Below the pieces are notes generated by a model. That model had not been told where the DNA came from. It did no database searches and worked only from the letters and a program-made list of their open reading frames with translations. Both the position numbers and the translations under genes were made by a program. DNA of 53,176 nucleotides from Lachnospiraceae bacterium. GTDB lineage: Bacteria; Bacillota; Clostridia; Lachnospirales; Lachnospiraceae. This document shows positions 10,418 to 42,775 of the stretch, in pieces. The stretch covers positions 1 to 53,176 of the forward strand of contig JAFZQN010000104.1 of NCBI GenBank assembly GCA_017620375.1, given 5' to 3'. The first letter of the stretch is position 1; each line of letters begins with the position of its first letter.

Positions 10418-10772
10418 AAATATACGGCTGTGGGCGGTGTCATGTTGCCTCGTAATTTAAGTTACGATTGTGTAGTAACGACCTGTCCATAAGGAAACAT
10501 ATCATCGTTCGCATTGATGCACTTTACGATCTTATCCTGCATCTTCACTACGGACGTTTGCAATCGTGAGCCCGCTTGATACCGGGCTCACTTGTGCTAC
10601 ACTCAGAAATCGGTTTGGTTAACCGATTTCTGCCTTGTTTAGATGCGATAATATCGTAGTGCATCTAATGCTCACTTAAAGTTTCCTTATAGAACAGGTC
10701 GTTCCGACACAATCTGTTTATTCAGTTTGCTTGGTAAACCATGACACCGCACCACAGCATACGTAATATTTC
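10418..10772 (+). repeat. Long imperfect palindrome, copy 1 (structured RNA or palindromic repeat)
   Basis: This fills most of the 470-bp gap between infB and the next gene and contains no plausible ORF. The two halves are complementary over most of about 350 nt: for example CGGTGTCATG (10435-) with CATGACACCG (10740-), ACGACCTGT with ACAGGTCGT, and ATAAGGAAAC with GTTTCCTTAT. The centre holds hairpin A (10566-10574 with 10583-10591, 8-nt loop) and hairpin B (10605-10615 with 10621-10631, loop TGGTT). A 13-nt linker, TTGTGCTACACTC, joins them. A related copy lies at 42452-42775; hairpin stems differ between copies by compensating changes. Inside the operon it would also block or process the infB transcript. 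Confidence 0.85.
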
Positions 10773-10797
10773 AAATGAATAATAAAGTTGGGTAAGA

Positions 10798-10850
10798 ATA
10801 AAATGTAGTATACATTTTATGTTGAATGTTATATAATTATCATGTATAAA
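10798..10850 (+). promoter_or_regulatory. Internal promoter with adjoining palindrome, upstream of the mini-lipoprotein and rbfA
   Basis: TTGAAT at 10822-10827 and TATAAA at 10845-10850 are separated by 17 bp; an overlapping TATAAT lies at 10832-10837. Directly upstream of the -35 box is a perfect 10-bp inverted repeat, ATAAAATGTA/TACATTTTAT (10798-10807 with 10811-10820, 3-bp spacer), a good operator candidate. It would restart transcription of rbfA-nrnA after the large palindrome. Confidence 0.6.
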
Positions 10851-10878
10851 ATATCACTATATTAAAAGGTGAGGATAC

Positions 10879-10983
10879 ATGAAAAAAATAGCTTTTGTTT
10901 TATTGATCATATGTTTTTGTGTTACCGGATGCGGCAGTGAACCGGAGAAAAAAGTTGAAAGCATTAGATTAAGGAAAGACTAG
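10879..10983 (+). CDS. 34-residue putative lipoprotein (small ORF)
   Basis: ATG 10879 to TAG 10983 encodes a protein that begins MKKIAFVLLIICFCVTGCG: a lysine-rich start, a hydrophobic stretch and a lipobox (VTGC). Only about 16 charged residues follow the lipidated Cys. The ribosome binding site AAGGTGAGG is strong and a promoter lies just upstream. The stop codon is 3 nt before the rbfA ATG, and the rbfA ribosome binding site (AAGGAAAG) is inside its last codons, so translation is probably coupled. It could be a real tiny lipoprotein, a truncated remnant of a longer one, or a translational lead-in to rbfA. Confidence 0.6.
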   Translation: MKKIAFVLLIICFCVTGCGSEPEKKVESIRLRKD

Positions 10984-10986
10984 AAT

Positions 10987-11412
10987 ATGAGAAAAAACAG
11001 TATTAAAAATATAAGGATCAACCAGGAAGTTCAGAAGGAATTAAGTAATCTGATAAGGATGGAAGTTAAGGACCCCAGAGTGTCTCCCATGACTACCATC
11101 GTTAATGTTGAAGTAGCTCCCGATCTTAAGACCGCAAAAGTGTTTATCAGTGTCTTAGGTGATGAGAAGGCTCAGCAGGATACCATCAGAGGTCTTAAGA
11201 GTGCGGCTCCTTTCCTTAGAAGCCAGCTTGCTCATAACATGAATATGAGAAATACTCCCGAGCTTCGTTTTATATCGGATCAGTCCATCGAATACGGTGT
11301 TAATATGTCTCATCTTATCGATGAGATCACAGCCGATCTTCATGATGATGAAGAAAATGCTGAGGCAGATGATATCGATGATGTTGAATCCGATGATGAG
11401 GAAGAGATTTAA
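10987..11412 (+). CDS. rbfA: Ribosome-binding factor A
   Basis: Cold-shock and 30S maturation factor, 141 aa. The KH-like fold carries INQEVQKELSNLIRMEVKDPRV and VEVAPDLKTAKVFISVLG, ending with TPELRFISDQSIEYG. An acidic tail of about 25 residues (Asp/Glu-rich) extends beyond the usual family end. It starts 3 nt after the small lipoprotein ORF. The usual partner infB lies upstream but is separated by the long palindrome. Confidence 0.95.
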   Translation: MRKNSIKNIRINQEVQKELSNLIRMEVKDPRVSPMTTIVNVEVAPDLKTAKVFISVLGDEKAQQDTIRGLKSAAPFLRSQLAHNMNMRNTPELRFISDQSIEYGVNMSHLIDEITADLHDDEENAEADDIDDVESDDEEEI

Positions 11413-11459
11413 TTGAGGTGTGTTAAAGAGAACGGTTCTTTTGACATACCGGAGGTAAT

Positions 11460-12422
11460 ATGAATTTAGAAGGATTATGGAAGAGAATAGCAGATGCCAA
11501 AAGAATCGGTATCTGCGGACATGTAAGACCTGACGGTGATTGTATCGGGTCATGTCTTGGTTTTTACAATTATATTTTATACAGATTCGGCAAGGAAGCC
11601 GATGTTTATTTAGAGGAAGTATCGCCGGAATTTCTGTTTTTGAACGGAACTGACAAGGTGATCACCGGTTATCCGGATGCTGATAAGTATGATGTCTTTT
11701 TTGCATTGGACAGCGGTGATACAGAGAGACTAGGTGATGGATATAAGTATTTTAAGGATGCTGATTATACATATTGTTTTGACCATCATCCCACCAATAC
11801 AGGGTATGCAAACGAGAACATGATCGTACCCACAGATGCCGCTACCACAGAGCTTTTGGCTTCGGTATTCGGTGAAGAGTACATAGATGTTAATACCGCT
11901 AATTGTTTATATCTGGGTATAGTGCATGACACAGGAGTGTTTAAGCATTCCAATGTGACCAGAAAGACTATGGAGACTGCCGGTATGCTTATCGAAAAAG
12001 GTGTTATCCCCGGCGATATCATAGACAAGACTTTTTATGAGAAGACTTATGTACAGAACCAGATCTTAGGCAGATGCCTTATGGAAAGTATACTGCTCAT
12101 GGATGGGCAGGTTATCGTTTCCTATGTGCCTTGCGAGGTACAGAAGCTTTATGGTATTACCAACAACGATATGGGCGGTATCATAGACCAGCTCAGAGTC
12201 ACCAAGGGCGTAGAAGTAGCTATACTGCTTAAAGAAGGTAAGAAACGAGAGTGGAAGGTCAGTTTAAGGTCAAATTCTATAGTTGATGTCAGCAAGATTT
12301 CCGTTATGTTTAACGGAGGCGGCCATGTAAGAGCTGCAGGATGTACTATGTACGGATCAGTACATGACTGTATCAATTCGCTGACCAAAGAAATTTCCAA
12401 ACAATTAAACTCTGCTCAATAA
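11460..12422 (+). CDS. nrnA: DHH-family phosphoesterase, NrnA-type (nanoRNase / pAp phosphatase)
   Basis: 320 aa. In the family it degrades 2-5 nt RNAs and can remove phosphate from pAp. Motifs are visible: GHVRPDGDCIGS (motif I), ALDSGD (II), FDHHPTN (the DHH triad, III), and the DHHA1 motif FNGGGHVRAAGCTM near the end. The start ATG follows CCGGAGGTAAT. Follows rbfA by 47 bp, the standard rbfA-nrnA-truB order of Firmicutes, although truB here is 7 kb away. Confidence 0.94.
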   Translation: MNLEGLWKRIADAKRIGICGHVRPDGDCIGSCLGFYNYILYRFGKEADVYLEEVSPEFLFLNGTDKVITGYPDADKYDVFFALDSGDTERLGDGYKYFKDADYTYCFDHHPTNTGYANENMIVPTDAATTELLASVFGEEYIDVNTANCLYLGIVHDTGVFKHSNVTRKTMETAGMLIEKGVIPGDIIDKTFYEKTYVQNQILGRCLMESILLMDGQVIVSYVPCEVQKLYGITNNDMGGIIDQLRVTKGVEVAILLKEGKKREWKVSLRSNSIVDVSKISVMFNGGGHVRAAGCTMYGSVHDCINSLTKEISKQLNSAQ

Positions 12423-12441
12423 TTATTTAAATCGTATACAA

Positions 12442-12470
12442 AACATACAAATACAGAACATACAAGTACA
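12442..12470 (+). repeat. Two-copy 15-bp direct repeat before the sigma-factor gene
   Basis: AACATACAAATACA (12442-12455) is followed after one G by AACATACAAGTACA (12457-12470), between nrnA and the sigma gene. It ends beside the AAGGAGG site of the sigma factor. It could be a regulator-binding site or simple slippage; I see no clear promoter in this gap. Confidence 0.5.
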
Positions 12471-12480
12471 AGGAGGTCCC

Positions 12481-13032
12481 ATGAAAAGCGATGAAGAGCT
12501 TTACATGCTTTTTTTGCAAGGTCATACAGAATGTTATGATGAGCTCATGGTTCGCTATGGGGATGCTCTGACCGCGTATCTGAAGGGGTATCTGCAAAGT
12601 TTTGAAGATGCGGAAGATCTGATGATAGAGGCTTTTGCCAATATCATGGCGAAAAAGCCAAAGATAAAGCATGGATTTAAAGCTTATCTGTTTAGGACAG
12701 GTCACAACCTGGTATATCACCTGTATGTCAAGGAGAAAAGATTAAAGGTATTTAGTCTTGATGACCTTAATGAAGAATGCACATCCGATGGTGAAAACTT
12801 TGAAGATAAGCTGTGTAACGATGAACAGAAGAAAGCGTTGCACAGATGTATAGGAAGACTTGATCCGGATCTTCGTGAGGCTGTATGGCTGGTGTATTTT
12901 GAAAAGTTAAGTTATGATCAGACCGCGGATATCATGGATGTTTCAAAGAAAAAAGTAGATTATATGCTTACCAGGGCCAAGGTGGTCCTGAAACGAGAAC
13001 TGGAAAAGGAGGGATATTCAGGTTATGCTTAA
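12481..13032 (+). CDS. ECF-type sigma-70 family RNA polymerase sigma factor
   Basis: 183 aa, two-domain sigma factor. Region 2 is at about residues 20-60 (YDELMVRYGDALTAYLKGYL, then EDAEDLMIEAFANIMAK). Region 4 is at about 125-175: LDPDLREAVWLVYFEKLSYD, then an HTH ending KVDYMLTRAKVVLKREL. No region 1.1 or 3. It overlaps the following small membrane protein gene by 8 bp. With the downstream PrsW-like protease this makes a self-contained membrane-signalling module, inferred from the PrsW/RsiW/SigW precedent in Bacillus. Confidence 0.92.
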   Translation: MKSDEELYMLFLQGHTECYDELMVRYGDALTAYLKGYLQSFEDAEDLMIEAFANIMAKKPKIKHGFKAYLFRTGHNLVYHLYVKEKRLKVFSLDDLNEECTSDGENFEDKLCNDEQKKALHRCIGRLDPDLREAVWLVYFEKLSYDQTADIMDVSKKKVDYMLTRAKVVLKRELEKEGYSGYA

Positions 13033-13375
13033 ATCTAATGAACAAAGAATAGCGGAAATGCATAAAAGAGCAGCTATGACAGTGCATAATGAAAGAGAAG
13101 CAAAAGCAAAGATTTATTATGTATGTGCCGGCCTGGTTGCAGCTGCTGCCATGTTCTTTATCGTATTTATCCTTCCGGGTATCTCGGGTATCTCCGGTGT
13201 GGGTACAGTTAACGGATCTGCGGATGTTATGTTTGGAAGTATTTTCACTGACGGGGATGCACTTAACTACATAGTAGTCGGTATATGTGCTTTTGTACTC
13301 GGCGTGATACTTACCATATTCTGTTATCGTTTAAACAAGTGGAAAAAAGAAGAACCTAAAAAAGAGGATAAATAA
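13025..13375 (+). CDS. Small two-TM membrane protein, candidate anti-sigma factor (copy A)
   Basis: 116 aa. A cytoplasmic-looking N-terminus with NEQRIAEMHKRA is followed by TM helices at about residues 36-56 and 84-104, an extracytoplasmic loop between them, and a charged Lys/Glu tail. No known anti-sigma domain (zinc anti-sigma HxxxCxxC) is seen. Its place directly after the sigma gene (8-bp overlap) and before a PrsW-type protease makes it the likely anti-sigma partner. A paralogue at 14872-15186 shares the EQRIxxMH motif, the SADV loop motif and the second helix. Confidence 0.8.
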   Translation: MLKSNEQRIAEMHKRAAMTVHNEREAKAKIYYVCAGLVAAAAMFFIVFILPGISGISGVGTVNGSADVMFGSIFTDGDALNYIVVGICAFVLGVILTIFCYRLNKWKKEEPKKEDK

Positions 13376-14067
13376 TGGTAGTAATTATAGAAAGTTCTAT
13401 ATTTATAGCTATATTATTGATCTGTGTAATCATTGATACGTTAAGAGCAGTTAAAACCAAGAAAAGAGAGTGGATGCTGCTCTTTCTTTTTCATGTTCTG
13501 TACTTTTTCTCCGCGCTTTATTATGAATTATACTTCATAGTATTTGCAGATGAGCCCCTCAGCCATATATCAGAGATTGCATGGTATGTATCTTATCTGT
13601 TTTTAACATTGCTGCTGCAAAATATCAGAGATAAGGAAATGGATAAGAAGAAATATAAGATACTGTATATTATACCGGTATTTACTTTTGCGGTAGCTGT
13701 CGGATATATTATTTATTCCGAAGGAGATGTATTCAGTAATGTCATATGTGCACTGCTGATGTGGATATTACTGCGTGAGACGGCAAAAGGAGCGATGTTC
13801 TATAAGGAAAAGTACGGCAAGAATTATCCCGCCAAATGGCTGTATCGCAGTTCATTTATATTCTGTTCTCTAGAATATATCACATGGACCGTATCCTGTT
13901 TCTTCTTTGAAGAAAGCTGGAGTAATCCTTACTACTGGTGTGATCTGATGCTGGCATTATCGTTTTTCTTATTCATTCCTTCCGTAGAAAAAATAGTCGG
14001 TTCTCCGTTGACAAACGCAGATATGTCATCGGATGAAGCACAGTCTGCATCAAGGAGCGAAGGATGA
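13375..14067 (+). CDS. Seven-TM membrane protein of unknown function
   Basis: 230 aa, almost entirely hydrophobic. Likely helices lie near residues 3-20, 28-50, 60-76, 85-102, 112-128, 150-168 and 180-198, and a short Ser-rich tail follows. Overlaps the preceding gene by one base (TAATG) and the following PrsW-like gene by four (ATGA), so it belongs to the sigma module. The seven-helix layout could be a sensor for the pathway, but I recognise no family. Confidence 0.82.
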   Translation: MVVIIESSIFIAILLICVIIDTLRAVKTKKREWMLLFLFHVLYFFSALYYELYFIVFADEPLSHISEIAWYVSYLFLTLLLQNIRDKEMDKKKYKILYIIPVFTFAVAVGYIIYSEGDVFSNVICALLMWILLRETAKGAMFYKEKYGKNYPAKWLYRSSFIFCSLEYITWTVSCFFFEESWSNPYYWCDLMLALSFFLFIPSVEKIVGSPLTNADMSSDEAQSASRSEG

Positions 14068-14705
14068 ACTATATAGAAAATATTTATATATGTCTTGCGG
14101 CTCCTATGATCGTCGCTATTTTCTGCCTGGATTCTTACCGTAGAAGAATGATGGTATTTTTGCTTAGCGGGATGACTATGTGTCTGCTTTCTTCGTACAT
14201 AAATACTTTCATAGCCTATGCATACGGAATGGATACCATTATCGCATCTGTTGAGATATCTCCTACGGTTGAAGAGATAATGAAGCTGCTGCCGGTTATC
14301 TTTTATCTGTTGGTATTTGAACCTCCCAAGAACAGGATGATCGGTAACACCATAACGGTAGCGATAGGATTTGCAACATTTGAAAACGTATGTTATCTGC
14401 TTGGTAATGATACATCCAATATACAGCATCTGTTGATACGCGGATTTGGTACAGGTACGATGCATGTGGTGACCGGACTGGTTGTTATGTTCGGTATGCA
14501 GTCGGTATGGGAAAAACTGTGGCTGAGACTGGCCGGTACACTTGGACTTCTGACCATATCTATCATATTCCATGCTTCATTCAATATCATGGTATCTCAA
14601 CCTGGACTATTGGCAAATATAGGATATATGTTCCCCATAGTAACCGTAATATTTGTATTGATCATGAAAAAACGTATAGGACCGGTAATTAAAGCACGTA
14701 CATAA
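14064..14705 (+). CDS. PrsW-family intramembrane metalloprotease
   Basis: 213 aa, polytopic. It carries all family motifs in order: EE..K at E70-E71-K74 (SPTVEEIMK), FEN at 106-108 (ATFENVCYLL), His134 (GTGTMHVVTG) and His170 (IIFHASFN). In Bacillus PrsW makes the first cut in anti-sigma factor RsiW. Here the gene closes a sigma factor, small membrane protein and 7-TM protein operon with overlapping ends, so its substrate is probably the small membrane protein at 13025-13375 or its paralogue. Confidence 0.88.
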   Translation: MNYIENIYICLAAPMIVAIFCLDSYRRRMMVFLLSGMTMCLLSSYINTFIAYAYGMDTIIASVEISPTVEEIMKLLPVIFYLLVFEPPKNRMIGNTITVAIGFATFENVCYLLGNDTSNIQHLLIRGFGTGTMHVVTGLVVMFGMQSVWEKLWLRLAGTLGLLTISIIFHASFNIMVSQPGLLANIGYMFPIVTVIFVLIMKKRIGPVIKART

Positions 14706-14774
14706 TATAAGTTGTATGTATACATTTAAGCAAATTGTCAGAAAATAAAACAAAAAAAAATAAAAAGATTAACT

Positions 14775-14815
14775 TTTAAGTCCCGTCTGGATTTTATCCA
14801 AAACGGGACTCTTAA
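14775..14815 (+). terminator. Terminator-like hairpin after the sigma module
   Basis: AGTCCCGT (14779-14786) pairs with ACGGGACT (14803-14810), with an inner TGGAT/ATCCA helix. An AT-rich run precedes it and CTTAATTTAT follows. The U-tract is poor in one direction and an A-rich tract lies on the other side, so termination may be partial, leaving read-through into the paralogue at 14872. Confidence 0.6.
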
Positions 14816-14871
14816 TTTATGTAAGGGTATATTTGAACGTAATTCATATTTACATAAAGGTGGTAATTATA

Positions 14872-15186
14872 ATGAAAACGATAGAACAAAGGATTAGTAT
14901 GATGCATGATCTGGCGTTTAAGAAAAGGAGAAAAGCGGAAGAAGCGGTATTAAAAGCACTCGGAACTGTGTCTTTAGGCTTGCTGGCCTTTCTTATCGGC
15001 TGGATATATCTGATCGAGGGTGAACTGCATCCTGTTGCCGATGCCGGATTTACAGGAAACTCGATGCTGTCGGCGGATGTGGGTGGATATGTACTGGTAG
15101 CGGTACTGGCGTTTGTAGCAGCTGTAGTACTCACGGTAATATGTATTAAACTAAAGGATAAAAACAAAGGAACACCGGATGAATAA
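14872..15186 (+). CDS. Small two-TM membrane protein (copy B of the candidate anti-sigma factor)
   Basis: 104 aa from ATG 14872 with AAAGGTGG just upstream; an in-frame TTG at 14833 is less likely. The same plan as 13025-13375: N-terminal IEQRISMMHDLA, TM at about residues 30-48, a loop containing SADVGG, TM at about 72-92, and a Lys-rich tail. It lies beyond the hairpin at 14779 and before a strong terminator. A second copy beside one sigma factor suggests two inhibitors or an evolved decoy; the function is not proven. Confidence 0.78.
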   Translation: MKTIEQRISMMHDLAFKKRRKAEEAVLKALGTVSLGLLAFLIGWIYLIEGELHPVADAGFTGNSMLSADVGGYVLVAVLAFVAAVVLTVICIKLKDKNKGTPDE

Positions 15187-15198
15187 CTGCTTTTTAAG

Positions 15199-15236
15199 AA
15201 AACACGAAGGAGTGGAACCCTTCGTGTTTTTGTGTT
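15199..15236 (+). terminator. Intrinsic terminator after copy B
   Basis: AAACACGAAGG pairs with CCTTCGTGTTT (about 15200-15210 with 15219-15229) around the loop AGTGGAAC, and TTTGTGTTTT follows. A strong hairpin ends the sigma-module region. Confidence 0.85.
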
Positions 15237-15284
15237 TTCGGTATTTATATTTTATCGACAATAATCTTATATTAAATGAAGTAC

Positions 15285-15313
15285 TTGCCTTTGTTTGAAT
15301 AAACATATATAAT
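15285..15313 (+). promoter_or_regulatory. Promoter of the methyltransferase gene
   Basis: TTGCCT at 15285-15290, a 17-bp spacer and a perfect TATAAT at 15308-15313. The expected leader is about 35 nt before ATG 15356, which has an AAAGGAG site. Confidence 0.75.
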
Positions 15314-15355
15314 ACTGTGTAATCGTGTATTAGACATATATATAAAGGAGTATCT

Positions 15356-16108: not shown

Positions 16109-16190
16109 ATTTGATGGAACCGGTATAACTATATGTGCGTCAAATATATAGAAACAAAAAATACTGCTTTTATAAGAAAGGGTTAAGAAA

Positions 16191-17333
16191 ATGAAAAAGA
16201 AATTATTTAAGTTATTGGCTGTAATGCTGTGCCTTATACTTGTACTTACCGCATGTGGTAAGGATGAGCCTGAGGAGGATAATGACAGGCGTGGCGGCAG
16301 ACGTACCGTTACAGATACTCCCGATGAGGATAAGCCTGCCGATGCTATAACAGATGTTCCTACCGTAGCTGTTACAGATGTTCCTACAGCAGGTGTTGTT
16401 GGGGAAAATGATATAAATGGTAGCGGCAAAGAAGGTGATATTTCACTTCCTACGGTTGCACCTACTTTAGATCCTACTCCGGAGCCCACTACGGATCCTA
16501 CACCCGAACCTACCGTAGATCCGACACCTGAACCTACTGCTGATCCGACACCCGAACCTACTGCTGATCCGACACCCGAACCTACAGCCGAACCCACACC
16601 CGAGCCTGCAATAGATGACGATATCGATGATATGGATCTGTCCGGTATTCTTACGGATGGTAAAATTCTTTCAGATGATGAAATTTTAGATTTGGCCAAG
16701 GCAATATCAAATGCATCACATGGTAAAAAGAGATATCTGTATTTGGATTCGGAAATGAGTATGGATATTGGCGGGATGAACATGGATGTAATCTCGAATG
16801 AAACAATTCAGGTAAATGGTAAAATCCTGCATGTGATTTCATATACCGATATTTATGGCAGTAATACTAATATCGAATCTTATTCGGTGGGAAATGATGA
16901 TGGAACAACAGAGTCTTATACCAGCTATGACGGTGGAAATACATGGAAGAAGAGCAAAGATGATATAGTTACATTAGGCTCTCCTTTTGACAATGACTAT
17001 GAAGAATATGCTAAATTCCTTAAAGATGCATATATAGTAGAGACTACTTCCGGTTATACAGTAACCTGTAAGCTGTGTGTGGAAGAAGAGGGGCTTAAGT
17101 ACATACTTGATTGTGAGATATATCTTGATACAGAAGGTAGAGTTACAGGATATAAGATGCATCTCGATGCTCCTATGGAACAAGAAATAGATGGCATGAA
17201 TGTAGTAATGTCCAAGTATGATATAGAATTCGAAACAGACTGTCCCGAGATTGAGATACCTGCAGAAGCTCTTAACGCAACAGAATATGATATAAATGAT
17301 CTCTCAGGTTTATTAGACGGTCTTGATTATTGA
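16191..17333 (+). CDS. Lipoprotein with proline/threonine repeat linker
   Basis: 380 aa. The signal peptide ends with a lipobox at LTAC (about residues 19-22). Residues about 25-95 are polar. A TPEPTxDP repeat linker spans 96-140, and the C-terminal domain of about 220 residues follows. That domain has a beta-rich LppX/LolA-like feel (MSMDIGGMNMDVISNETI and later EMEQEIDGMNV), suggesting a LolA-fold lipoprotein. That is a weak inference. The linker probably spans the cell wall. Its promoter was not resolved, and a clear terminator follows. Confidence 0.85.
   Translation: MKKKLFKLLAVMLCLILVLTACGKDEPEEDNDRRGGRRTVTDTPDEDKPADAITDVPTVAVTDVPTAGVVGENDINGSGKEGDISLPTVAPTLDPTPEPTTDPTPEPTVDPTPEPTADPTPEPTADPTPEPTAEPTPEPAIDDDIDDMDLSGILTDGKILSDDEILDLAKAISNASHGKKRYLYLDSEMSMDIGGMNMDVISNETIQVNGKILHVISYTDIYGSNTNIESYSVGNDDGTTESYTSYDGGNTWKKSKDDIVTLGSPFDNDYEEYAKFLKDAYIVETTSGYTVTCKLCVEEEGLKYILDCEIYLDTEGRVTGYKMHLDAPMEQEIDGMNVVMSKYDIEFETDCPEIEIPAEALNATEYDINDLSGLLDGLDY
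16476..16610 (+). repeat. 24-bp tandem repeat encoding TPEPTxDP
   Basis: Five full 24-bp units and a partial sixth (16476-16610) encode TPEPTTDP, TPEPTVDP, TPEPTADP twice and TPEPTAEP. The units keep frame, so length variation between strains is likely. A protein linker, not an RNA feature. Confidence 0.9.
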
Positions 17334-17346
17334 TTTATGAATTTTG

Positions 17347-17383
17347 GCCTTTCCTATTTAGATGATAGGAAAGGCTTTTTTTT
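17347..17383 (+). terminator. Intrinsic terminator after the lipoprotein
   Basis: GCCTTTCCTAT (17347-17357) pairs with ATAGGAAAGGC (17365-17375) around TTAGATG, followed by eight T residues. A textbook rho-independent terminator. Confidence 0.93.
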
Positions 17384-17406
17384 ATTTAACGAATTAAATT
17401 TATAGT

Positions 17407-17434
17407 TTGAAATTTAAGGATATTATTGTATAAT
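17407..17434 (+). promoter_or_regulatory. Promoter of the DUF6273 protein and truB
   Basis: TTGAAA at 17407-17412 and TATAAT at 17429-17434 are separated by 16 bp. The ATG is at 17514 after AAGAGGAGG. As truB abuts this gene, this promoter probably drives truB as well. Confidence 0.65.
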
Positions 17435-17513
17435 TATTATGTATATGCGTAACTATAAACATGTTATCTGAAAAGAATAAGGGATATCATAAAGCAAATA
17501 AGAGGAGGCAGGT

Positions 17514-30229: not shown

Positions 30230-32995
30230 ATGAAAAAGAGTAATGTTTTAAAGGTCATAGTCTGCCTTGCAGCTATGATCTTTGGCTGTATTTTTATGGC
30301 CGAAAACCGGGCTGATATCGCAAAAGCTGCTGAATACGAAGATATCAAGCCTGTAGCTATTAATTCAAGTACGTTCCCTGATCCTAACTTCAGAGCCTAC
30401 GTATCCGGAGAATTTGACAGGGACAAGGACGGCACACTTAGCCGTGACGAGATCATATATGCAAGAAATATCTGGGCTGACGGTCTTGGCATCAAATCTT
30501 TAAAGGGTATAGAATACCTTGTTGAATTACGTGGATTATATGCTTCTCATAACGAGCTTACCGAGCTTGACTTAAGCGGTAATCAGGAGATCACCGGAGT
30601 ATGGGTTGCATATAATAACTTCACATCTCTTGATTTTTCATCAACTCCGACACTGGAGTGGGTATATTGTTTTTATTGTCCTTATCTGACTAACCTCGAT
30701 GTTACGGGTAACCCCGAAATGTCTTATATCGAGTGTAATTCAAGTCCTGTAGGAAAACTTGATCTGAGCAAGAATCCCAAGTTAGAGCATCTGATGTGCG
30801 GTGACTGCGATATGTATGAACTTGATCTAAGTCACAACCCAAATATGCAGCATCTTGATGCATTCAGAAATCATTTTAAGAAACTTGATGTAACATGCTG
30901 TCCTTTGATGAAGCGTCTTGATATCTGGGATAATCCGGGACTCGGAAGTATTGATGTAAGTAAATGTCCGGGACTTCAGTATTATAATTGTTCAAACAAT
31001 GACGTTATAAAGATGGACGTAAGCCATAACCCCGAGCTTACCAAACTTATATGCAGTTACAACGAGGAATTAGAGGGTGTAGACGTTTCACATAATCCTA
31101 AGCTTGTATATCTTGACTGCGCTTACTGTTTTATAGACAAACTTGATATTTCAAACAATCCCAACCTTCAGTTTTTACAGGTATTTATCAATGACTTTAC
31201 CGAGCTTAATATCGGTAACAACCAGTTCCTTATAAAAACTTACAATGAAGGTGTTAAGGTTAAAGAGAACCCCGCTGTCTGTGGGCAGGCTCATTCCTGG
31301 ACTATAGACCTCGGTGGAGATACATCTACAGGCGGAGACAATATATATTTCATGGTTGTAGATGATAAGGTTACTCTTAAGTTTGATAAGACAAAAGATG
31401 TAGTAGTATCACATCCTGTAATGAATCTCGATGGCATTGATACATCCAAGCTTATAACCAGAGAAGCAGTAGTAGAGACTCTGTATGAGATGGCAGGAAA
31501 GCCTTCTGTCAGTGGATTAAAATCCAGATTTACCGATGTGGTACCCGAAACATCATATTATAATGCTTTACTTTGGGGCGAAAAAAATGCCGTATGCAAG
31601 GGCTATCCCAATTTCATCGATGATACCTTCGGCGTAGGCGAATATATCGATACTCAGGATATGCTGTATATGGTCATGAGTTTTGTTGAGTATGTCGGAT
31701 ATCGTCGTGAGATCGATTTCGGCCGAAGTGATGAATTCATAGATTATTATGATGTTGATCCGGCCCGCTGGGAGGCAGTATGCTGGGCAGCAACATGGCG
31801 TATATTCATGGGCAAGGGTGATCCTAACGCACCCAAATCCGAAAAGAAGATAGAGCCTTATGGCCCTGTTACAAAACAGGAATTTGTAAATGTTATCAAT
31901 AATACCTATGATGTTAATAAGGTAAATAAAGTTGCTTATATTAATTCCAACGGAACCATAAGCTTTAAGGCCGGCGATCCTATGACAGGTGTCATCTATG
32001 AAGGCACCACCGGAGGAAGCACAGGTGGTTCAACAGGCGGAAGTACCGGTGGCAGTACAGGTGGTACAACAGGCGGTAGTGTAAGCGGCGGCAACACCGG
32101 AGGAAGTACCGGAGGAAGCACAGGTGGTTCTACAGGCGGCAGTACAGGTGGTTCGACAGGCGGTAGTGTAAGCGGCGGCACCGGAGGAAGCACAGGCGGT
32201 AGTACAGGTGGTTCTACAGGCGGAAATGTAAGCGGCGGCAGTACCGGAGGAAGCACAGGCGGCAGTACAGGTGGTTCTACAGGCGGAAATGTAAGCGGCA
32301 GCACCGGAGGAAGCACAGGCGGCAGTACAGGTGGTTCGACAGGTGGTAGTGTAAGCGGTGGCACCACAGGAACAGGTACAGGTTCGGATACCTCAAACGG
32401 TCCTAAAGTAGGCGACATCATCTTTGATATTGCAAGTAACGCAAACTACCAGATTACCTCATTCAGCAGCAAGAAGCATAACGTTGAATATATATCATAC
32501 TTAGGAAAATCAGATACAGTAACCGTACCTTCAACCATTACGGTAAAGGGGGTTACTTACAAAGTTACGACACTTTCTTCATCAGCATTTAAGAAGAATA
32601 CTAAGATTACATCGATCACTCTCGGTGATAACCTGACCAAGATCGGTAAGGGTTCGTTTGCAGGATGTACCAAGTTAAAGAAAGTCATACTGGGAAAATC
32701 CATTACGACTATCGGTGAAAGTGCATTTAAGAAATGTAAATCACTTGAATCGATCACCATACCTGAGAAAGTTAAATACATCAGAAAGACCATATTTAAC
32801 GGATGTAAAAAGCTTAAAAAACTGGTTATACGTACCAAGCTTTTAACAAGCAAGACTGTATCCAAGGGTGCGTTTAAGAATGTACCTGCCACATGTAAAG
32901 TAAGTGTCAGTGCTGATAAGCTGAAAGCATACCAGACACTTCTGACATCCAAGGGCCTTTCATCAAAGATCACACTTTCAGCATTTAAGAAGTAA
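30230..32995 (+). CDS. Large LRR surface protein with EF-hand, SLH-like region and BspA-type LRR_5
   Basis: 921 aa, secreted (signal peptide to about residue 33, AKAAE). Residues 63-74 form a canonical calcium EF-hand loop (DRDKDGTLSRDE). Leucine-rich repeats with LDLSxNP units run from about 85 to 345. Residues about 405-580 resemble S-layer homology modules (ITREAVVETLYEMAGKPSV, YYNALLWGEKNAVCKGY). A Gly/Ser/Thr low-complexity linker follows at about 593-718. The C-terminus (about 740-880) holds BspA-like LRR_5 repeats such as ITSITLGDNLTKIGKGSFAG. An adhesin or wall-attached scaffold is likely; the SLH reading is tentative. Confidence 0.88.
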   Translation: MKKSNVLKVIVCLAAMIFGCIFMAENRADIAKAAEYEDIKPVAINSSTFPDPNFRAYVSGEFDRDKDGTLSRDEIIYARNIWADGLGIKSLKGIEYLVELRGLYASHNELTELDLSGNQEITGVWVAYNNFTSLDFSSTPTLEWVYCFYCPYLTNLDVTGNPEMSYIECNSSPVGKLDLSKNPKLEHLMCGDCDMYELDLSHNPNMQHLDAFRNHFKKLDVTCCPLMKRLDIWDNPGLGSIDVSKCPGLQYYNCSNNDVIKMDVSHNPELTKLICSYNEELEGVDVSHNPKLVYLDCAYCFIDKLDISNNPNLQFLQVFINDFTELNIGNNQFLIKTYNEGVKVKENPAVCGQAHSWTIDLGGDTSTGGDNIYFMVVDDKVTLKFDKTKDVVVSHPVMNLDGIDTSKLITREAVVETLYEMAGKPSVSGLKSRFTDVVPETSYYNALLWGEKNAVCKGYPNFIDDTFGVGEYIDTQDMLYMVMSFVEYVGYRREIDFGRSDEFIDYYDVDPARWEAVCWAATWRIFMGKGDPNAPKSEKKIEPYGPVTKQEFVNVINNTYDVNKVNKVAYINSNGTISFKAGDPMTGVIYEGTTGGSTGGSTGGSTGGSTGGTTGGSVSGGNTGGSTGGSTGGSTGGSTGGSTGGSVSGGTGGSTGGSTGGSTGGNVSGGSTGGSTGGSTGGSTGGNVSGSTGGSTGGSTGGSTGGSVSGGTTGTGTGSDTSNGPKVGDIIFDIASNANYQITSFSSKKHNVEYISYLGKSDTVTVPSTITVKGVTYKVTTLSSSAFKKNTKITSITLGDNLTKIGKGSFAGCTKLKKVILGKSITTIGESAFKKCKSLESITIPEKVKYIRKTIFNGCKKLKKLVIRTKLLTSKTVSKGAFKNVPATCKVSVSADKLKAYQTLLTSKGLSSKITLSAFKK
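32006..32370 (+). repeat. Short tandem repeats encoding GGSTGGSTGG/VSGG
   Basis: About 360 bp of 9- and 12-bp units (GGCAGTACAGGT, GGTTCTACAGGC and variants) with interspersed VSGG blocks, encoding the linker of the LRR protein. All units are multiples of three, so expansions would keep frame. The opposite strand is fully open in one frame (proline-rich) only because of the repeat. Confidence 0.9.
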
Positions 32996-35033: not shown

Positions 35034-35077
35034 TATTATCTTGTACTTTTTATTATGAAAGATTGCAAAAAATCACA

Positions 35078-35106: not shown

Positions 35107-35146
35107 GTATATAGTTTTTATTATATCATTTCACGGAGGAAATCAC

Positions 35147-37543: not shown

Positions 37544-37555
37544 TATTGTTATACT

Positions 37556-37596
37556 AGGTGCCAATGGGACAGTTCCTGTTGGCACCTTTGTTTTTT
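37556..37596 (+). terminator. Intrinsic terminator after the GH94 gene
   Basis: AGGTGCCAA (37556-37564) pairs with TTGGCACCT (37579-37587), with an inner partly paired loop, followed by TTGTTTTTT. A strong terminator. Confidence 0.9.
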
Positions 37597-37753
37597 GTGC
37601 AATATAGCGACTTGTTACGTTTTTTTTTCGAATTTATTTAATAATTTTGCTATTGAAAAACCTTGAAAAATGTAGTATCCTTTTATTCTGTGATGGTATA
37701 AACTTTTATAATACAACAGTTTGCATGACTTTTACAGTCAGAAGGATATATAG

Positions 37754-39487
37754 ATGAAAAACGATAAAGGAAACAGTAAGATACTGATCATAGGTGTTCT
37801 TTCAATAGTTCTGGGACTTGTGGCGCTCGGAGTTATACTGAAGACCGTTATATTCCCAGGCGATAAGGACGAGCCTTCGATGCTTACAGAGGTTTCAGGA
37901 GCTGAAAATACCGGAGAAAAAACCGATACAAATGATAACGATCAGACCGATAAAGATGATCCCGCCAAATCAAATGCATTTAGTGAAGGCGTAACTATAG
38001 ACGGTGTTGATGTATCAGGTAAGTCAAAAGAAGAAGTTAAAGAGCTCTTTGCTTCAAAGAATGAAGCAGCAGAAAATAAAGATCTTAATATCAGTTTTAA
38101 GCTTGATGAAGAGACAGTAGCATTAGACAGCAATGATGTAGTATTTGAAAATAACCTTGATGAAATCATCGAGGAAGCATTTAAGATCGGACGTGAAGCA
38201 GGCAGTTCCGATAAGGTATTTAAGCTTGACGAGAAGGTATCAAAAGAAAGTATTGCTGAAGCAGTACACAATGCTCTTGATAAGTACAATAAAGAGCCTG
38301 TGGAAGCCGAAGTTACAGGCTTCGATACCGAGACACTTACATTTATCATTACCGAGTCTGAGAACGGACTTAAGGTAAATACAGATAAGGTTATAGAGGA
38401 ACTTACAAAGGCATTTGAGACCGGTGATTTTTCAAAAGAGATCACTGTTGAGACCGAAGTGATCGAGCCTGAGAATTCCACTGAGTTCCTTAGCGGGTAT
38501 CTCGGACTTGTTTCATCAACCACTTCGACAACCACAAGCGTTGCAAACAGAAATACCAACATCGACCTTGTATGTCAGAAGTTGAACGGACTTGTACTTA
38601 TGCCCGGTGAACAGTTTGATTTTAACAAATATATCGGACAACGTACTGCTGAGGCAGGATTTAAAGAGGCCGGCGGTATATATGACGGAAAACTTATCCA
38701 GGAGCTTGGCGGCGGTATCTGCCAGGCAAATGCGATGATATATCACAGTGTTACCAAGGCAGACCTTCAGGTTGACTCCAGATCCGCACATACCTGGCCC
38801 AGTGACTATGTTCCTACAGGTACAGATGCTACGGTATCATGGGGCGGTCCCGAGTTCAGGTTCACCAACAGTTCTGATTATCCTATAGCTTTACATGCTT
38901 ATTATAAGAGCCAGAAGGTTACCGTTGAAGTATACGGACGTCCTGTTGCTGACGGACTGACCATTAAGCTCATCGGTGTGGTAGAGAGTAGCGTTGCTCC
39001 CGAAAAGGTTGAATATGTAGCGGACAGCTCTTTGGCAGTTGGCAAGACTGTTACAGAGAGAAGTGCACATAATGCTATCAAGGCAAGCTCATATAAAGTA
39101 TATTATGATGCAGATGGCAATGAGGTAAAGCGTGAAAAGTATTTCTCAAGCAGTTATCCTATGATCAATAAAAAGGTCAGAGTCGGTACTTTGGCTGAGG
39201 ATGGTGTTACCATATTTAAGCTCGATAAGACCACAGGTGAGGTTACTCCTCCCGAAGGTTATGTAGAGCCCACACCTACACCGGATCCCAATGCGGAGAT
39301 TACGGATACACCCGAGCCTACAAAGAAGCCTAAAAAAGACAAGAAAGACAAGAATAAGACCGAAACAGGCGAGACAGGTAACGGCGAGAGCGGAAATGAA
39401 GAATCCGGTACAGGCAGAACCGTTATCATAAACGGTAAAGAAGTTGAGCTTGGAACTCTTACTCCGGCACCCGGTCCTGTAGGCTGA
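37754..39487 (+). CDS. VanW-family cell wall protein
   Basis: 577 aa. The TM anchor is at about residues 9-30. A peptidoglycan-binding-4-like segment follows (GVDVSGKSKEEVKELF), then the VanW domain from about 255 (LMPGEQFDFNKYIGQRTAEA and QELGGGICQANAMIYHS). A G5-like domain follows at about 410-475, ending in a Pro/Thr/Lys-rich tail. The usual GGGICQVSTTLYNA is changed to ANAMIYHS, a minor variation. Probably linked to wall assembly; no vancomycin-resistance genes are near. The rpsO promoter begins just after its stop codon. Confidence 0.88.
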   Translation: MKNDKGNSKILIIGVLSIVLGLVALGVILKTVIFPGDKDEPSMLTEVSGAENTGEKTDTNDNDQTDKDDPAKSNAFSEGVTIDGVDVSGKSKEEVKELFASKNEAAENKDLNISFKLDEETVALDSNDVVFENNLDEIIEEAFKIGREAGSSDKVFKLDEKVSKESIAEAVHNALDKYNKEPVEAEVTGFDTETLTFIITESENGLKVNTDKVIEELTKAFETGDFSKEITVETEVIEPENSTEFLSGYLGLVSSTTSTTTSVANRNTNIDLVCQKLNGLVLMPGEQFDFNKYIGQRTAEAGFKEAGGIYDGKLIQELGGGICQANAMIYHSVTKADLQVDSRSAHTWPSDYVPTGTDATVSWGGPEFRFTNSSDYPIALHAYYKSQKVTVEVYGRPVADGLTIKLIGVVESSVAPEKVEYVADSSLAVGKTVTERSAHNAIKASSYKVYYDADGNEVKREKYFSSSYPMINKKVRVGTLAEDGVTIFKLDKTTGEVTPPEGYVEPTPTPDPNAEITDTPEPTKKPKKDKKDKNKTETGETGNGESGNEESGTGRTVIINGKEVELGTLTPAPGPVG

Positions 39488-39497
39488 TAAAAAAATC

Positions 39498-39526
39498 TTG
39501 ACAATGTCTTGCATTTACTATATAAT
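39498..39526 (+). promoter_or_regulatory. Consensus promoter of rpsO
   Basis: TTGACA at 39498-39503, exactly 17 bp, TATAAT at 39521-39526: full consensus at both boxes, the strongest promoter in the window. Expected start near 39533, with a leader of about 85 nt to ATG 39619. Confidence 0.92.
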
Positions 39527-39540
39527 ACGTTTGTTTTAAA

Positions 39541-39576
39541 GGACTTTGACTCAGTTTTCGGAGTCTCCAACCGGTT
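39541..39576 (+). promoter_or_regulatory. rpsO: rpsO leader structure, candidate S15 autoregulation site
   Basis: GACTC/GAGTC (39548-39552, 39561-39565), with GGA/TCC outside it, forms a bulged hairpin, and AACCGGTT (39569-39576) is a self-complementary block. S15 autoregulates through leader structures in several bacteria, so a binding site is likely here. I did not match it to a known S15 leader class. Confidence 0.45.
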
Positions 39577-39618
39577 ACTTAGTCATAGTCGACAATATAA
39601 TAAAAGGAGGTAATCGAC

Positions 39619-39885
39619 ATGATTACAAAAGAAAAGAAAGCAGCTATTATCGCTGAGTATGGTAAGACACCTGAGGATACCGGTTCTACACAGGTACAGG
39701 TTGCTATCCTTACCGCAAGGATCAATGAACTTACAGAGCATTTAAAGGTTCATAAGAAGGATCATCATTCAAGACGTGGTCTTCTTATGATGGTAGGTCA
39801 GAGACGTGGTCTCCTTGAGTACCTTAAGAAGACAGATATCAATGAATATCGTGCTCTTATCGAGAAGCTTGGTCTTAGAAAATAA
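39619..39885 (+). CDS. rpsO: 30S ribosomal protein S15
   Basis: 88 aa, standard length. The family block [20 protein letters not shown] is followed by [20 protein letters not shown] and [23 protein letters not shown]. The ribosome binding site is a full AAAAGGAGGT. It binds 16S rRNA directly in early 30S assembly. Terminator follows at 39893. It usually follows ribF, here 9.6 kb away. Confidence 0.98.
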
Positions 39886-39892
39886 TCACATT

Positions 39893-39925
39893 ACGCCTGC
39901 CTTTATGACAGGCGTTTTGATTTCT
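39893..39925 (+). terminator. Intrinsic terminator after rpsO
   Basis: ACGCCTG (39893-39899) pairs with CAGGCGT (39909-39915), then TTTGATTTCTT. A moderately strong terminator. Confidence 0.85.
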
Positions 39926-39965
39926 TAAGATCTTTTTATGGGAATGTGGAAACAGGTTGGTATAT

Positions 39966-41393
39966 ATGACTTATGATGATGTTCAAAACTTTATAAGTAA
40001 AGAGTGTACATCCGGTTCGGTATATGGACTCGACAGGATTAAAGAGCTTGTAAAACGTCTCGGTAATCCTGAAAAGGATATGAAGATCATCCATATAGCC
40101 GGTACCAACGGTAAAGGCTCCATATCACGGATGATAATGAGCGTACTGGCCTGTTCCGGATATAAGGTCGGTATATTTAATTCTCCTTTTTTGGACAGCA
40201 GAAGAGAGTATCTCTGTATCAACGGTGAGAATGCCACTGATGAGGGATATGCCCTAACCGGTAAAAAGGTGATCGAAGCTATAAAAGGGATAGATATACC
40301 CGGTAAAAAGAAGAATGAAATGTCGGAATATCCTACCGAGTTCGAGTTCTCATTTGCTATGGCGTTGAAGTATTTCGCGGATAATGAATGTGATTTCGCT
40401 ATAGTGGAATGCGGTCTCGGCGGACTGACTGATGCTACCAATATATTTGAAGATAAGGTGCTTAGCATTATAGCAAATATAGGACTTGATCATACAAAAC
40501 TGCTTGGGAACAGTATCAAAGAAATAACGGAACAGAAATGTGGTATCATTATTAAAAACGATATCGTGGTTGCATATCCTTCCGATAAAGAAGCAATGAG
40601 TGTGATAAAGAAGGTGTGCAGGAAAAACAGAGCCTGGCTTATAACTCCGGATTATAAGGTCTTTAACAATATGAATTATTATGATCCGGGTTTGGCAGAT
40701 AATATTAAGAAATCGGATTATAAGTATCTTCCCGATGCCGAAAAAGCATATGCTGATACTGTTGATAGTTTAAATAAGTTTATGTGCTCAAGCAGGGTGG
40801 AAAAGGTATGGCTTTCCATGCCGTATCTGCTTGACAGGCTAAACCTAAAAGGAGCATTCCAGAAGAAGAATGCTATGGTGGCCCTGGCGTCTGTTATGGC
40901 GTTAAAGTATAAAGGGTATCTGAAAAAGGTTAGCTTCACATCTATAGAAAAAGGGTTTAAAAACGTTACCTGGCCCGGAAGATTTGAGACCTTACTTAAA
41001 AAGCCGCTTGTTATAGCAGACGGCGGTCATAATATGCAGTGTACCAAGGCACTTATCGAATCGCTGGATGAAGAGGATATTAAAAAAGCTATATTTGTAA
41101 TAGGTATCATGGCAGATAAGGATTATAAAGAAGTATTCAAACTACTTACACCTTATATGGAGCAGGTGATAACTACGGAACCCTCTAATCCGAGAAGACT
41201 TGATGCGGAAGATATATGTGAATGTATACGGACGAATAAAGAGAGTATATCAGGGTTCACTATAGAAAAAGATCCCTGTAAGGCCGTAAAAAAAGCGATC
41301 GAAATAAGTAATAAGGATTATTCATGTAAGATGCCGGTGATCGTGACCGGTTCATTATATATGATGGCCGATATCAGAAAAGCTGTCAAATGA
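39966..41393 (+). CDS. folC: Folylpolyglutamate synthase / dihydrofolate synthase
   Basis: 475 aa, Mur-ligase fold. The ATP loop is IAGTNGKGSISRMI (about residues 46-58). Next is FVVECGLGG-type FAIVECGLGGLTDATN, then WPGRFE and IADGGHNMQC, all in FolC order. It adds glutamate residues to folate. ATG 39966 is chosen; an in-frame TTG at 39957 has the same weak upstream AGGTTGG. It is 19 bp from the polysaccharide deacetylase and probably in the same transcript, an unusual pairing. Confidence 0.94.
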   Translation: MTYDDVQNFISKECTSGSVYGLDRIKELVKRLGNPEKDMKIIHIAGTNGKGSISRMIMSVLACSGYKVGIFNSPFLDSRREYLCINGENATDEGYALTGKKVIEAIKGIDIPGKKKNEMSEYPTEFEFSFAMALKYFADNECDFAIVECGLGGLTDATNIFEDKVLSIIANIGLDHTKLLGNSIKEITEQKCGIIIKNDIVVAYPSDKEAMSVIKKVCRKNRAWLITPDYKVFNNMNYYDPGLADNIKKSDYKYLPDAEKAYADTVDSLNKFMCSSRVEKVWLSMPYLLDRLNLKGAFQKKNAMVALASVMALKYKGYLKKVSFTSIEKGFKNVTWPGRFETLLKKPLVIADGGHNMQCTKALIESLDEEDIKKAIFVIGIMADKDYKEVFKLLTPYMEQVITTEPSNPRRLDAEDICECIRTNKESISGFTIEKDPCKAVKKAIEISNKDYSCKMPVIVTGSLYMMADIRKAVK

Positions 41394-41412
41394 TAGTTTT
41401 GGAGGAATTGTA

Positions 41413-42438
41413 ATGAAGAAACAGATCATTAAAGCATTAAGCTTTATAGCTGTGTTTGCACTTTGTGTTTCCATGCTCGTACCTTTAGGTTACAGCGAAG
41501 CAAAAGCAGCTGAAAAGAAAGTTAAGCTTAATAGGAAAAAGATCACACTTACTACAGGTGACTGGAAAAAGTTAAAGCTCAAAAACCTGGATTATGAAAT
41601 TGATGATATCGAGTGGTCCACCACTGATAAGGCAGTAGCCAAGGTATCACGTAAGGGCTGGGTGGTAGCACTGGTAAAAGGTGAGTGTACCATTAAAGCT
41701 AAAGTAAAAGCTACCGGTAAGACATATAAGTGTAAGGTTACCGTAAATGCTCCCGATATGAGTAAGAGAGTAATAGATCCGGAAAAGCCCATCGTAGCAC
41801 TTACTTTTGATGACGGTCCCGGACCTAATACAACAGGACTTTTGGAAACACTTAAGACTTACGGTGTTACAGCTACATTTTTCATGTGCTATTCTAACGG
41901 CAGCGGATTTAAGGTATACAGCGATGTAGTACGTGAAGTATATAATTCAGGATGTGAAGTAGCAAATCATACACAGAATCATCCTCAGCTCACCAAGTGC
42001 TCGGTAGCAAAGATCGACGAAGAAGTAAATGGTAACGCCGATAAGCTTGCCGATCTGGTAGGCAGAGGACAGAAGTTCTTATTAAGACCTCCTTACGGAG
42101 CTGTTAACGACAAAGTAAGGCAGAATGTTAATGTTCCTATGATCCTCTGGTCGGTTGATTCACTTGACTGGAAATATAAGACACAGGCCAACTGTACCGA
42201 TCTTATCATGAAGGAAGTAAAAGCTCAGGTAAGAGACGGCGGTATAATCCTTATGCATGATATCCATAAGACATCATGCGAAGCTGTAAAGACAGTTCTT
42301 CCATGGCTGATCCAACAGGGCTACCAGGTATGTTCAGTCAGCGAGATGTTCGAAGCAAGAGGCGTAGAACTTGAAGACGGTGTTACCTACAGTAAATGTA
42401 TCACCGCCGCAGAATATAAGGCTAACAAAACCAAATGA
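41413..42438 (+). CDS. Polysaccharide deacetylase with N-terminal Big_2 domain
   Basis: 341 aa, secreted (signal peptide to about residue 32, SEAKAAE). Big_2 Ig-like domain about 35-115 (KKITLTTGDWKKLKL, WSTTDKAVAKVS). NodB catalytic domain from about 128: LTFDDGPGPNTT carries the metal Asp, HTQNHPQL the metal-binding His pair, and LRPPYGAVN and MHDIHKTSCEAVK the later motifs. Likely removes N- or O-acetyl groups from peptidoglycan or another wall polymer. TTTTGGAGGA precedes the start. The downstream palindrome probably ends the transcript. Confidence 0.93.
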   Translation: MKKQIIKALSFIAVFALCVSMLVPLGYSEAKAAEKKVKLNRKKITLTTGDWKKLKLKNLDYEIDDIEWSTTDKAVAKVSRKGWVVALVKGECTIKAKVKATGKTYKCKVTVNAPDMSKRVIDPEKPIVALTFDDGPGPNTTGLLETLKTYGVTATFFMCYSNGSGFKVYSDVVREVYNSGCEVANHTQNHPQLTKCSVAKIDEEVNGNADKLADLVGRGQKFLLRPPYGAVNDKVRQNVNVPMILWSVDSLDWKYKTQANCTDLIMKEVKAQVRDGGIILMHDIHKTSCEAVKTVLPWLIQQGYQVCSVSEMFEARGVELEDGVTYSKCITAAEYKANKTK

Positions 42439-42451
42439 TGACTTTTTAGAA

Positions 42452-42775
42452 GACAATGGGGACGGTTCCGTTTGTCACCAATTATCTGACGGACTCGTAT
42501 GATCCGACCATGTAAGAACCATCATCGCTACGCAGGGATATTTATATGCGGGCTTATTCATATCTGCACTTCGGACGCTTGCAAGCGTCCGTCCGCCCGA
42601 TGCCGGACGGACTTGTGCTACGCTCAAAAACCGGTTTGGATAACCGGTTTTTGCCTTGTTACGATATGATAATACCGCAAAATATCCACTGCTAGCTTTA
42701 AGTTCTTACATGGAACGGATCACACGAGTCCTGTTCATGTAAAAAAAAGCAAATGGAAACCGTCCCTTTGAAATC
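42452..42775 (+). repeat. Long imperfect palindrome, copy 2 (REP-like ends)
   Basis: About 320 bp of self-complementary DNA in the gap between convergent genes; no plausible ORF. Outer arms: GGGGACGGTTCC (42458-) with GGAAACCGTCCC (42755-). Next GGACTCGT with ACGAGTCC and CATGTAAGAAC with GTTCTTACATG. Centre: hairpin A (42587-42595 with 42604-42612) and hairpin B (42626-42636 with 42642-42652), joined by TTGTGCTACGCTC. A further perfect palindrome, GGACGCTTGCAAGCGTCC, lies at 42573-42590. Compare copy 1 at 10418-10772. The GGGGACGGTTC end resembles REP-type sequences associated in some Clostridia with RAYT-type transposases, though none is here. Confidence 0.87.

Follow-up and report, generated by a model that had tools for sequence, protein, structure and literature searches.

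T-elements: dispersed T-shaped palindromes of a Lachnospiraceae genus whose two arms change together

The T-element considered here is a non-coding palindrome, two copies of which lie in a 53,176-nt contig from a Lachnospiraceae bacterium (GenBank assembly GCA_017620375.1, contig JAFZQN010000104.1, positions 1 to 53,176; this whole stretch is called the window). Among the closest described systems are the repetitive extragenic palindromes (REPs), arranged in bacterial interspersed mosaic elements (REP-BIMEs) or in inverted REP pairs (REPINs), together with the REP-associated tyrosine transposases (RAYTs); REPs are located mainly downstream of genes and compensatory changes in the REPIN spacer are reported (PMC3116915; PMC3733652). 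REPINs resemble T-elements as non-coding extragenic palindromes with folding of single-stranded DNA (ssDNA) and differ from them in build: the GI REPIN has 71 bp between 16-mers, whereas the T-element measures ~245 bp and has two apical hairpins and conserved internal-loop motifs (PMC3116915; PMC3733652). In contrast to REPINs, T-elements are conserved in mid-sequence and not at the ends, with 1 to 30 matches per bearing genome.

Bacterial miniature inverted-repeat transposable elements (MITEs) such as ERIC, NEMIS, Bcr1 and RUP, named in one of these sources (PMC3733652), are of the same size as the T-element and likewise non-coding, palindromic, intergenic and dispersed. The T-element is short, dispersed and non-coding in the manner of a MITE and departs from one at its termini: in place of shared terminal inverted repeats with a target duplication, its arms vary by copy and its flanks show a base preference only (TA duplication was not formally tested). 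No parent transposon was found for it.

Template switching between inverted repeats homogenises the arms and inverts the spacers, according to two studies (PMC8604942; PMC8794818), and the resulting hairpins share with the T-element multi-base two-sided changes and inversion of the spacer or loop. Cases given there include hairpins of rRNA and short inverted repeats within yeast genes, whereas the T-element is multicopy, 245 bp long and available as orthologous series.

The T-element is best read as a new REPIN- or MITE-like family of DNA repeats with an unusual T-shaped build. T-elements are probably dispersed non-coding DNA palindromes of ~245 bp whose arms are kept matched by template switching and which have a strand-specific ssDNA fold; this reading draws on a family with recurrent ends, persistence at orthologous sites, inversion in place, two-sided change without wobble excess, and preferential folding of the minus strand.

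Distribution and build of the family

A preliminary description of the window reported two related palindromes and proposed that they belong to a structured RNA or to a mobile repeat family. Both palindromes lie where that description placed them; the two regions fold much more stably than their dinucleotide shuffles (z-scores of -13.9 and -13.7, with 0 of 100 shuffles reaching either), and in the repeat listing of the window they form a direct repeat of 160 nt, 74% alike. The mobile repeat family is supported by 129 covariance-model matches in 9 of 24 genomes of the genus and by ~97%-alike copies at separate loci of the source genome; a lack of further copies, or variation without compensation, was looked for and not found.

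The source genome (2.53 Mb, 86% complete) contains 18 matches by DNA search, the last of which are weak. A covariance model covering the 109 positions at the centre of the element (alignment A3, 48 copies), with up to 150 candidates scored per genome, gives 22 matches in this genome and 30, 20, 19, 14, 12, 6, 5, and 1 in eight others of the one Lachnospiraceae genus, the weakest of the 129 being fragments. With stricter filters and one genome per genus across the family, the model matches 2 of 299 genomes, the source genome and, weakly, one other. An exact pattern matches 24 stretches in GTDB genomes (23 from Lachnospiraceae and one from a Ruminococcus sp.), whose source is given as rumen or omasum, or which have RUG/RUI labels, used for rumen genomes. 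The phage, plasmid, and viral-contig collections searched contained no match; Rfam gave none at the gathering score in the window and none up to E 1 in three loci; and no description of the T-element or its kind was found in the open-licence literature searched.

The exact pattern of one apical hairpin, hairpin B, matches 3 of the 299 genomes representing the genera of the family: the source genome, G027, and G197. Palindromes of G027 (loci L027, L036, L045, L063, and L064) and G197 (L105) are T-shaped and of similar size, the likeness noticed being hairpin B (CTCAAAAATCG...CGATTTTTG). Considered as family members, they have a similar build but unrelated arms, and are retained as a lead only.

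Variable arms of ~24 bp form the outermost part of the ~245-nt unit. Further in come AAAACC and GGTTTT, which are conserved and pair with each other; an asymmetric internal loop (TCATCGCT.. opposite ..CGCTTTA) and a GGATATGC/GCATATC stretch, both conserved as well; a second set of variable arms; and, at the apex, hairpins A and B. The core measures 192-196 nt in the 50 full-length matches first examined. In 71 of the 105 foldable copies (those with enough flank) the folded stem breaks off sharply at ~70 nt from the core in both directions. C precedes the left end in 47 of the 71, and T follows the right end in 47. The left flank was examined for a TTAC-type target as used by IS608 and shows too weak a preference (T 26, T 29, A 35, and C 47 of 71) for one to be claimed. 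Alignment of sister copies from different loci gives recurrent limits (marked ^): GAC^GAATGTC...GACATTC^TG for L005, L011, and L013, which are ~97% alike, lie at different loci of the source genome and have common ends (L020 is slightly different), and GAC^GGACTCG...CGAGTCC^TGT for L003, L007, L008, and L035, the same limits as the fold ends.

Variants of this arrangement were also seen. T-elements occur as inverted pairs ~365-385 nt apart in three genomes, at L051 (G002:C26), L055 (G005:C70), and L219 (G007:C185). The copy at L015 (G000:C14, 1316-1591) contains an insert of ~80 nt beside hairpin A with a hairpin of its own; L081 lacks this insert. A 4-kb contig, L246 (G005:C63, 1-3998), is bounded by inverted T-element halves identical over 141 nt, possibly an assembly effect of the palindrome, and encodes a DNA cytosine methyltransferase-like open reading frame (ORF; 470-1477) and a second ORF (1420-2460), by eye probably a restriction-modification pair.

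Orthologous sites, concerted change, and the folding strand

T-elements sit in short gaps, the end of the upstream gene commonly being 76-135 nt from the core, which lies ~70 nt inside the unit. Flank comparison assigns 76 copies to 27 orthologous groups in which both flanks are matched. The copy in the infB-rbfA gap is found in G000, G002, G005, G007, and G022, with arms that vary by species and pair within each. Among the genomes compared (G019 and G012, which were not judgeable, and the remaining genus members being left out), infB and rbfA occur without a T-element in G009, G006, G013, G015, G016, G018, and G023; such sites, for instance that of G009, where the two genes overlap, have no stretch between the genes by which an empty site could be recognised.

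Five orthologous groups contain copies in opposite orientations. In two of the five, inverted double copies lie side by side (L051 and L219), which also makes the orientation of L223, a member of the L051 group, ambiguous. The other three are clear in-place inversions: L002 versus L059/L193, L043 versus L006/L052, and L073 versus L205. Base alignments for the L002 and L043 groups display a reversed core between unchanged neighbours; the L073 inversion is read from flank comparison alone.

Compensating changes between the two copies in the window were noted in the preliminary description and are upheld: three pairs of hairpin A and two of hairpin B differ with both partners replaced, and the outer arms, which differ between the copies, pair inside each. 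Orthologous pairs of >90% identity exhibit 24 two-sided Watson-Crick changes in 1739 pairs (comparisons counted both ways), where ~0.8 would be expected by our own arithmetic if the sides changed independently; this excess indicates that mismatches appear first and become matched later, and copying between the arms explains the later matching. Loci L015 and L081 have 5' flanks with 98% identity along 1019 nt, and three mirrored changes can be read in their outer arms.

The types of base pair bear on whether pairing acts at the level of DNA or RNA. Among the 126 unique matches are 94 full copies (92 distinct; identical cores were checked to stem from different genomes). In stems A and B of the 92, 1903 of 1931 cells are Watson-Crick and 261 changes are two-sided, with G-T 5, A-C 7, and other 16; in the 48-copy alignment, 101 two-sided cells compare with a shuffle mean of 14.7, and the signal is lost on sliding the partners. 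The control, RNase P RNA in 30 sequences from related genomes, has 485 two-sided changes with G-T 289, A-C 12, and other 50. The first filter applied to this control counts G-U as pairing and favours G-U; under Watson-Crick-only filters (11 genus sequences), the G-T:A-C ratios are 37:3, 29:0, 9:0, and 6:0. The control sequences come from an RF00011 search of 61 genomes, all of which stayed below the gathering score; GAGGAAAGTCCGGGCT, a motif typical of RNase P, is present in the three sequences inspected. How often G-U occurs thus varies with the filter used, whereas its excess over A-C is seen under every filter; no such excess is found in the T-element.

Nor do mismatches follow transcription. 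Tandem-gene copies transcribed along the plus strand have G-T 28 and A-C 60, and those transcribed along the minus strand have G-T 8 and A-C 27. Counted on the transcript, wobble is less frequent than A-C in forward copies (28:60), more frequent in reversed ones (27:8), and over both kinds not enriched (55 versus 68 A-C). The mismatch bias tracks the element, not the transcript. Restricted to the element, mismatches in the 105 copies number G-T 48 and A-C 116 in the arms and G-T 11 and A-C 15 in the core, superseding an earlier count on 50 copies with long flanks (arms 46 and 49; core 4 and 18). On the plus strand of the arms, in the 97 of 105 copies with all landmarks used for arm-mismatch counts, C-T is also far above G-A, partly piled at fixed positions. 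The structured RNA of the preliminary description is not supported, given the unenriched wobble, the near absence of G-T beside 261 two-sided changes, the inverted cores at orthologous loci, and the lack of an Rfam match; the alternative raised there, a DNA hairpin kept by template switching, is the best-supported reading.

The two strands of the T-element differ consistently in folding. Calculated with DNA parameters, the fold of the minus strand is the more stable one in 105 of 105 copies (mean -75.8 versus -67.3 kcal/mol), and with RNA parameters in 99 of them, while flanking control stretches lean the opposite way (minus strand better in 62 of 189). The advantage is distributed over the parts of the element: in 103 copies, the minus strand is favoured in hairpin A in 97, hairpin B in 101, the apex in 100, and the arms in 92, and for the outer arms alone by 57 to 18 (78 copies). 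Shared ancestry of the copies means that 105 of 105 does not represent 105 independent events; strand polarity is a single conserved property, for which the arms, as they vary freely, provide support that is partly independent. These calculations suggest that the folded minus DNA strand is, or was, what matters.

A mechanism consistent with these observations would start from a single strand that folds into a long stem with the conserved asymmetric internal loop and two apical hairpins. The strand exposed at replication may adopt this fold, and the polymerase may then switch template between the arms; one arm would be copied onto the other, and the apex would sometimes be flipped, leaving the arms free to drift and yet matched. 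More tentatively, a strand-specific ssDNA-binding protein could recognise the unpaired motifs and apical hairpins and disperse the element, sometimes beside RAYT-type REP pairs. It is conceivable, if doubtful, that T-elements represent a new class, namely a strand-specific ssDNA hairpin element whose arms are continually re-copied by template switching and of whose folded minus strand a host protein reads only the unpaired motifs and the apex; chromosomal copies of such a class would keep their shape and lose their sequence, occupy one site in different species and be inverted where they lie.

Several observations weigh against a template-switched, mobile DNA palindrome. In close orthologs, 78 of the 1739 pairs are mismatched, hardly a rarity, so matching is not restored at once. 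The plus-strand excess of A-C over G-T, about twofold (68:37 in the outer arm and 33:9 in the inner, spread over many positions of the 97 copies), is a mild preference for minus-strand wobble, and in gene-reversed copies this wobble coincides with the transcript (the 27:8 above). Ninety copies have a gene within 500 nt on each side; of these, 44 are co-directional with their genes, 27 are between convergent genes, 15 have both genes against them, and 4 are between divergent genes; the orientation bias of 44:15 copies falls to 16:7 loci (7 loci mixed, p 0.09) on collapsing orthologs, and for this reason an orientation preference relative to genes is at most suggested. No REP motif was found within 220 nt of 102 of 117 copies. 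The search for RAYT or Y1 genes called for in the preliminary description found no Y1 transposase in the 86%-complete source genome, although 12 of the 24 genus genomes have one, and similarity to the T-element was absent from the 20 Y1 loci searched (11 IS200-like loci among them).

Covariation of stems is usually read as proof of a functional RNA, and the T-element is a natural, replicated counter-example: it has strong covariation, conserved loops, and low folding energy, yet its pair types point to DNA. Counting G-U against A-C by strand could serve as a simple check before covarying palindromic repeats are called RNAs. The family, with ~130 matches from nine species that include 27 groups of orthologous copies and several inversions in place, also allows template switching to be traced one event at a time.

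REP sequences, candidate mobilisers, and rival explanations

The palindrome pair outside copy 2 of the window belongs to the REP motif TGACAATGGGGACGGTTCTNTTTGTCA, which occurs at 13 places in the source genome (up to 3 mismatches), 7 of them adjoining a T-element or remnant. With up to 1 mismatch, the motif lies within 220 nt of 15 of 117 copies, where ~2.7 would be expected from the rest of the same loci. Inverted GGGGACGGTTC palindromes, REPs of the TGACAATGGGGACGGTTCT type, flank RAYT-like Y1 genes at 3 of 9 RAYT-like loci (L177, L185, and L186) and at 0 of 11 IS200-like loci; a REP-RAYT system exists in this genus. It is unlikely that the T-element is the spacer of a REPIN, carried as cargo within a REP pair moved by a RAYT. 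This explanation would account for the REPs flanking RAYT-like genes and copies such as L003, L007, L008, and L020, but aligned units end inside the REPs, in place of having two inverted REPs at their own ends, sister copies differ in REP sequence, and most copies, unlike REPINs, have no REP beside them; nor was a T-element found beside a Y1 gene. With its limits inside the REPs, the T-element is possibly not a REP itself but an element that inserts close to REPs or between them.

Of the 9 genus genomes that bear the element, 6 have RAYT-like Y1 genes (sorted by score and length) and 5 have IS200-like genes; of the 15 that do not, 4 have the former (Fisher p 0.09) and 1 has the latter (p 0.015). 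A Y1 transposase as linked mobiliser was rejected, there being no T-element at any of the 20 Y1 loci. For an IS200/IS605 derivative (palindrome-associated transposable element, PATE), which would have its termini or hairpins in common with a Y1 element of the genome, no similarity to the T-element was found in the 11 IS200-like loci.

Next in order of probability after the REPIN spacer, and improbable, is a hairpin acting in RNA from both directions, as a bidirectional terminator or stabiliser of mRNA 3' ends, in which selection on both strands would purge G-U since it appears as A-C on the opposite strand. The A and T runs in hairpin B read alike on either strand, the copies between convergent genes (27 of 90) would be suitably placed, and inversion would do no harm. 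Between tandem genes, however, one strand should count, yet wobble on the transcript strand is unenriched there (55 versus 68). Further, copy 1 lies in the infB-rbfA gap in five species, where a strong terminator would presumably cut off rbfA, and folding polarity is fixed to the element and not to the genes.

Integron attC sites are recombined as a folded single strand, the bottom strand only (PMC11023631), and the T-element too has one consistently better folding strand. That it is an attC-like site, the minus strand being the substrate of a site-specific recombinase, has a low probability, below that of the two-way hairpin. The greater stability of the minus strand in all 105 copies, the variable arms with conserved unpaired motifs, the dispersal of the copies, and the use of a single folded strand by integrons (PMC11023631) are in keeping with it; against it, the integron integrase model TIGR02249 scores above cut-off in 0 of 24 genus genomes, and integron integrase was rejected as a candidate. 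Weaker TIGR02249 matches, in 22 of the 24, are as expected of other tyrosine recombinases. Unlike in integrons, no cassette array was noticed around T-elements, nor were cassettes noticed between copies except in the 4-kb contig with inverted halves. The R' and R'' boxes of attC were not seen in the T-element by eye, no formal search having been made.

A structured RNA family, trans-acting or in 3' untranslated regions, with stems selected on the transcript of one strand, would suit the strong covariation, the conserved unpaired motifs, the copies just downstream of genes, and the mild minus-strand wobble excess, and is very unlikely in view of the pair types in stems A and B (G-T:A-C of 5:7 versus 289:12 in RNase P), the behaviour of transcript-strand wobble, the inverted cores, and the Rfam result described above.

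The two copies in the window

The features of both copies are given in Table 1. Hairpin A has the 9-bp stem and 8-nt loop first described, in both copies. For hairpin B the 5-nt loop stands (TGGTT/TGGAT), while the stem counts 12 bp instead of 11; the linker differs at a single position as reported, and is 12 nt long between A and B instead of 13. The earlier limits of copy 2 (42452-42775) are wider than the repeated unit, the excess being the REP-like palindrome pair. The arms of copy 1 are longer, and their ends, GGCTRTG...CAYAGC, are by eye common to the five species carrying this copy.

Table 1. Positions of T-element and REP features in the window
Feature	Position	Strand	Remarks
Copy 1 of T-element	10426..10758 (ends approximate)	+	infB-rbfA gap; outermost arms GGCTGTG...CACAGC; model R1 match 10537-10645, E 3.3e-29
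Copy 1, 5' internal-loop motif	10493..10520	+	GGAAACATATCATCGTTCGCATTGATGC
Copy 1, hairpin A	10566..10591	+	9 bp; covariation
Copy 1, conserved A-B linker	10592..10603	+	
Copy 1, hairpin B	10604..10632	+	12 bp; covariation
Copy 1, 3' internal-loop motif	10659..10686	+	
RAYT-type REP palindrome left of copy 2	42452..42477	+	GACAATGGGGACGGTTCCGTTTGTCA
Copy 2 of T-element	42488..42733 (ends approximate)	+	unit GAC^GGACTCG...CGAGTCC^TG; model R1 match 42558-42666, E 1.7e-28
Copy 2, 5' internal-loop motif	42514..42542	+	
Copy 2, hairpin A	42587..42612	+	9 bp
Copy 2, conserved A-B linker	42613..42624	+	
Copy 2, hairpin B	42625..42653	+	12 bp
Copy 2, 3' internal-loop motif	42679..42707	+	
Degenerate inverted REP right of copy 2	42755..42770	-	

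The neighbours of copy 1 are infB, encoding translation initiation factor IF-2, and rbfA; copy 2 lies between convergent genes for a polysaccharide deacetylase and a DUF6591 protein. A small lipoprotein-like ORF of 34 codons (MKKIAFVLLIICFCVTGCGSE...) occupies 10879-10983, between copy 1 and rbfA. Short tandem repeats are present within ORFs at 8135-8242, 16448-16615, and 31934-32362, among them three 36-nt units in infB.

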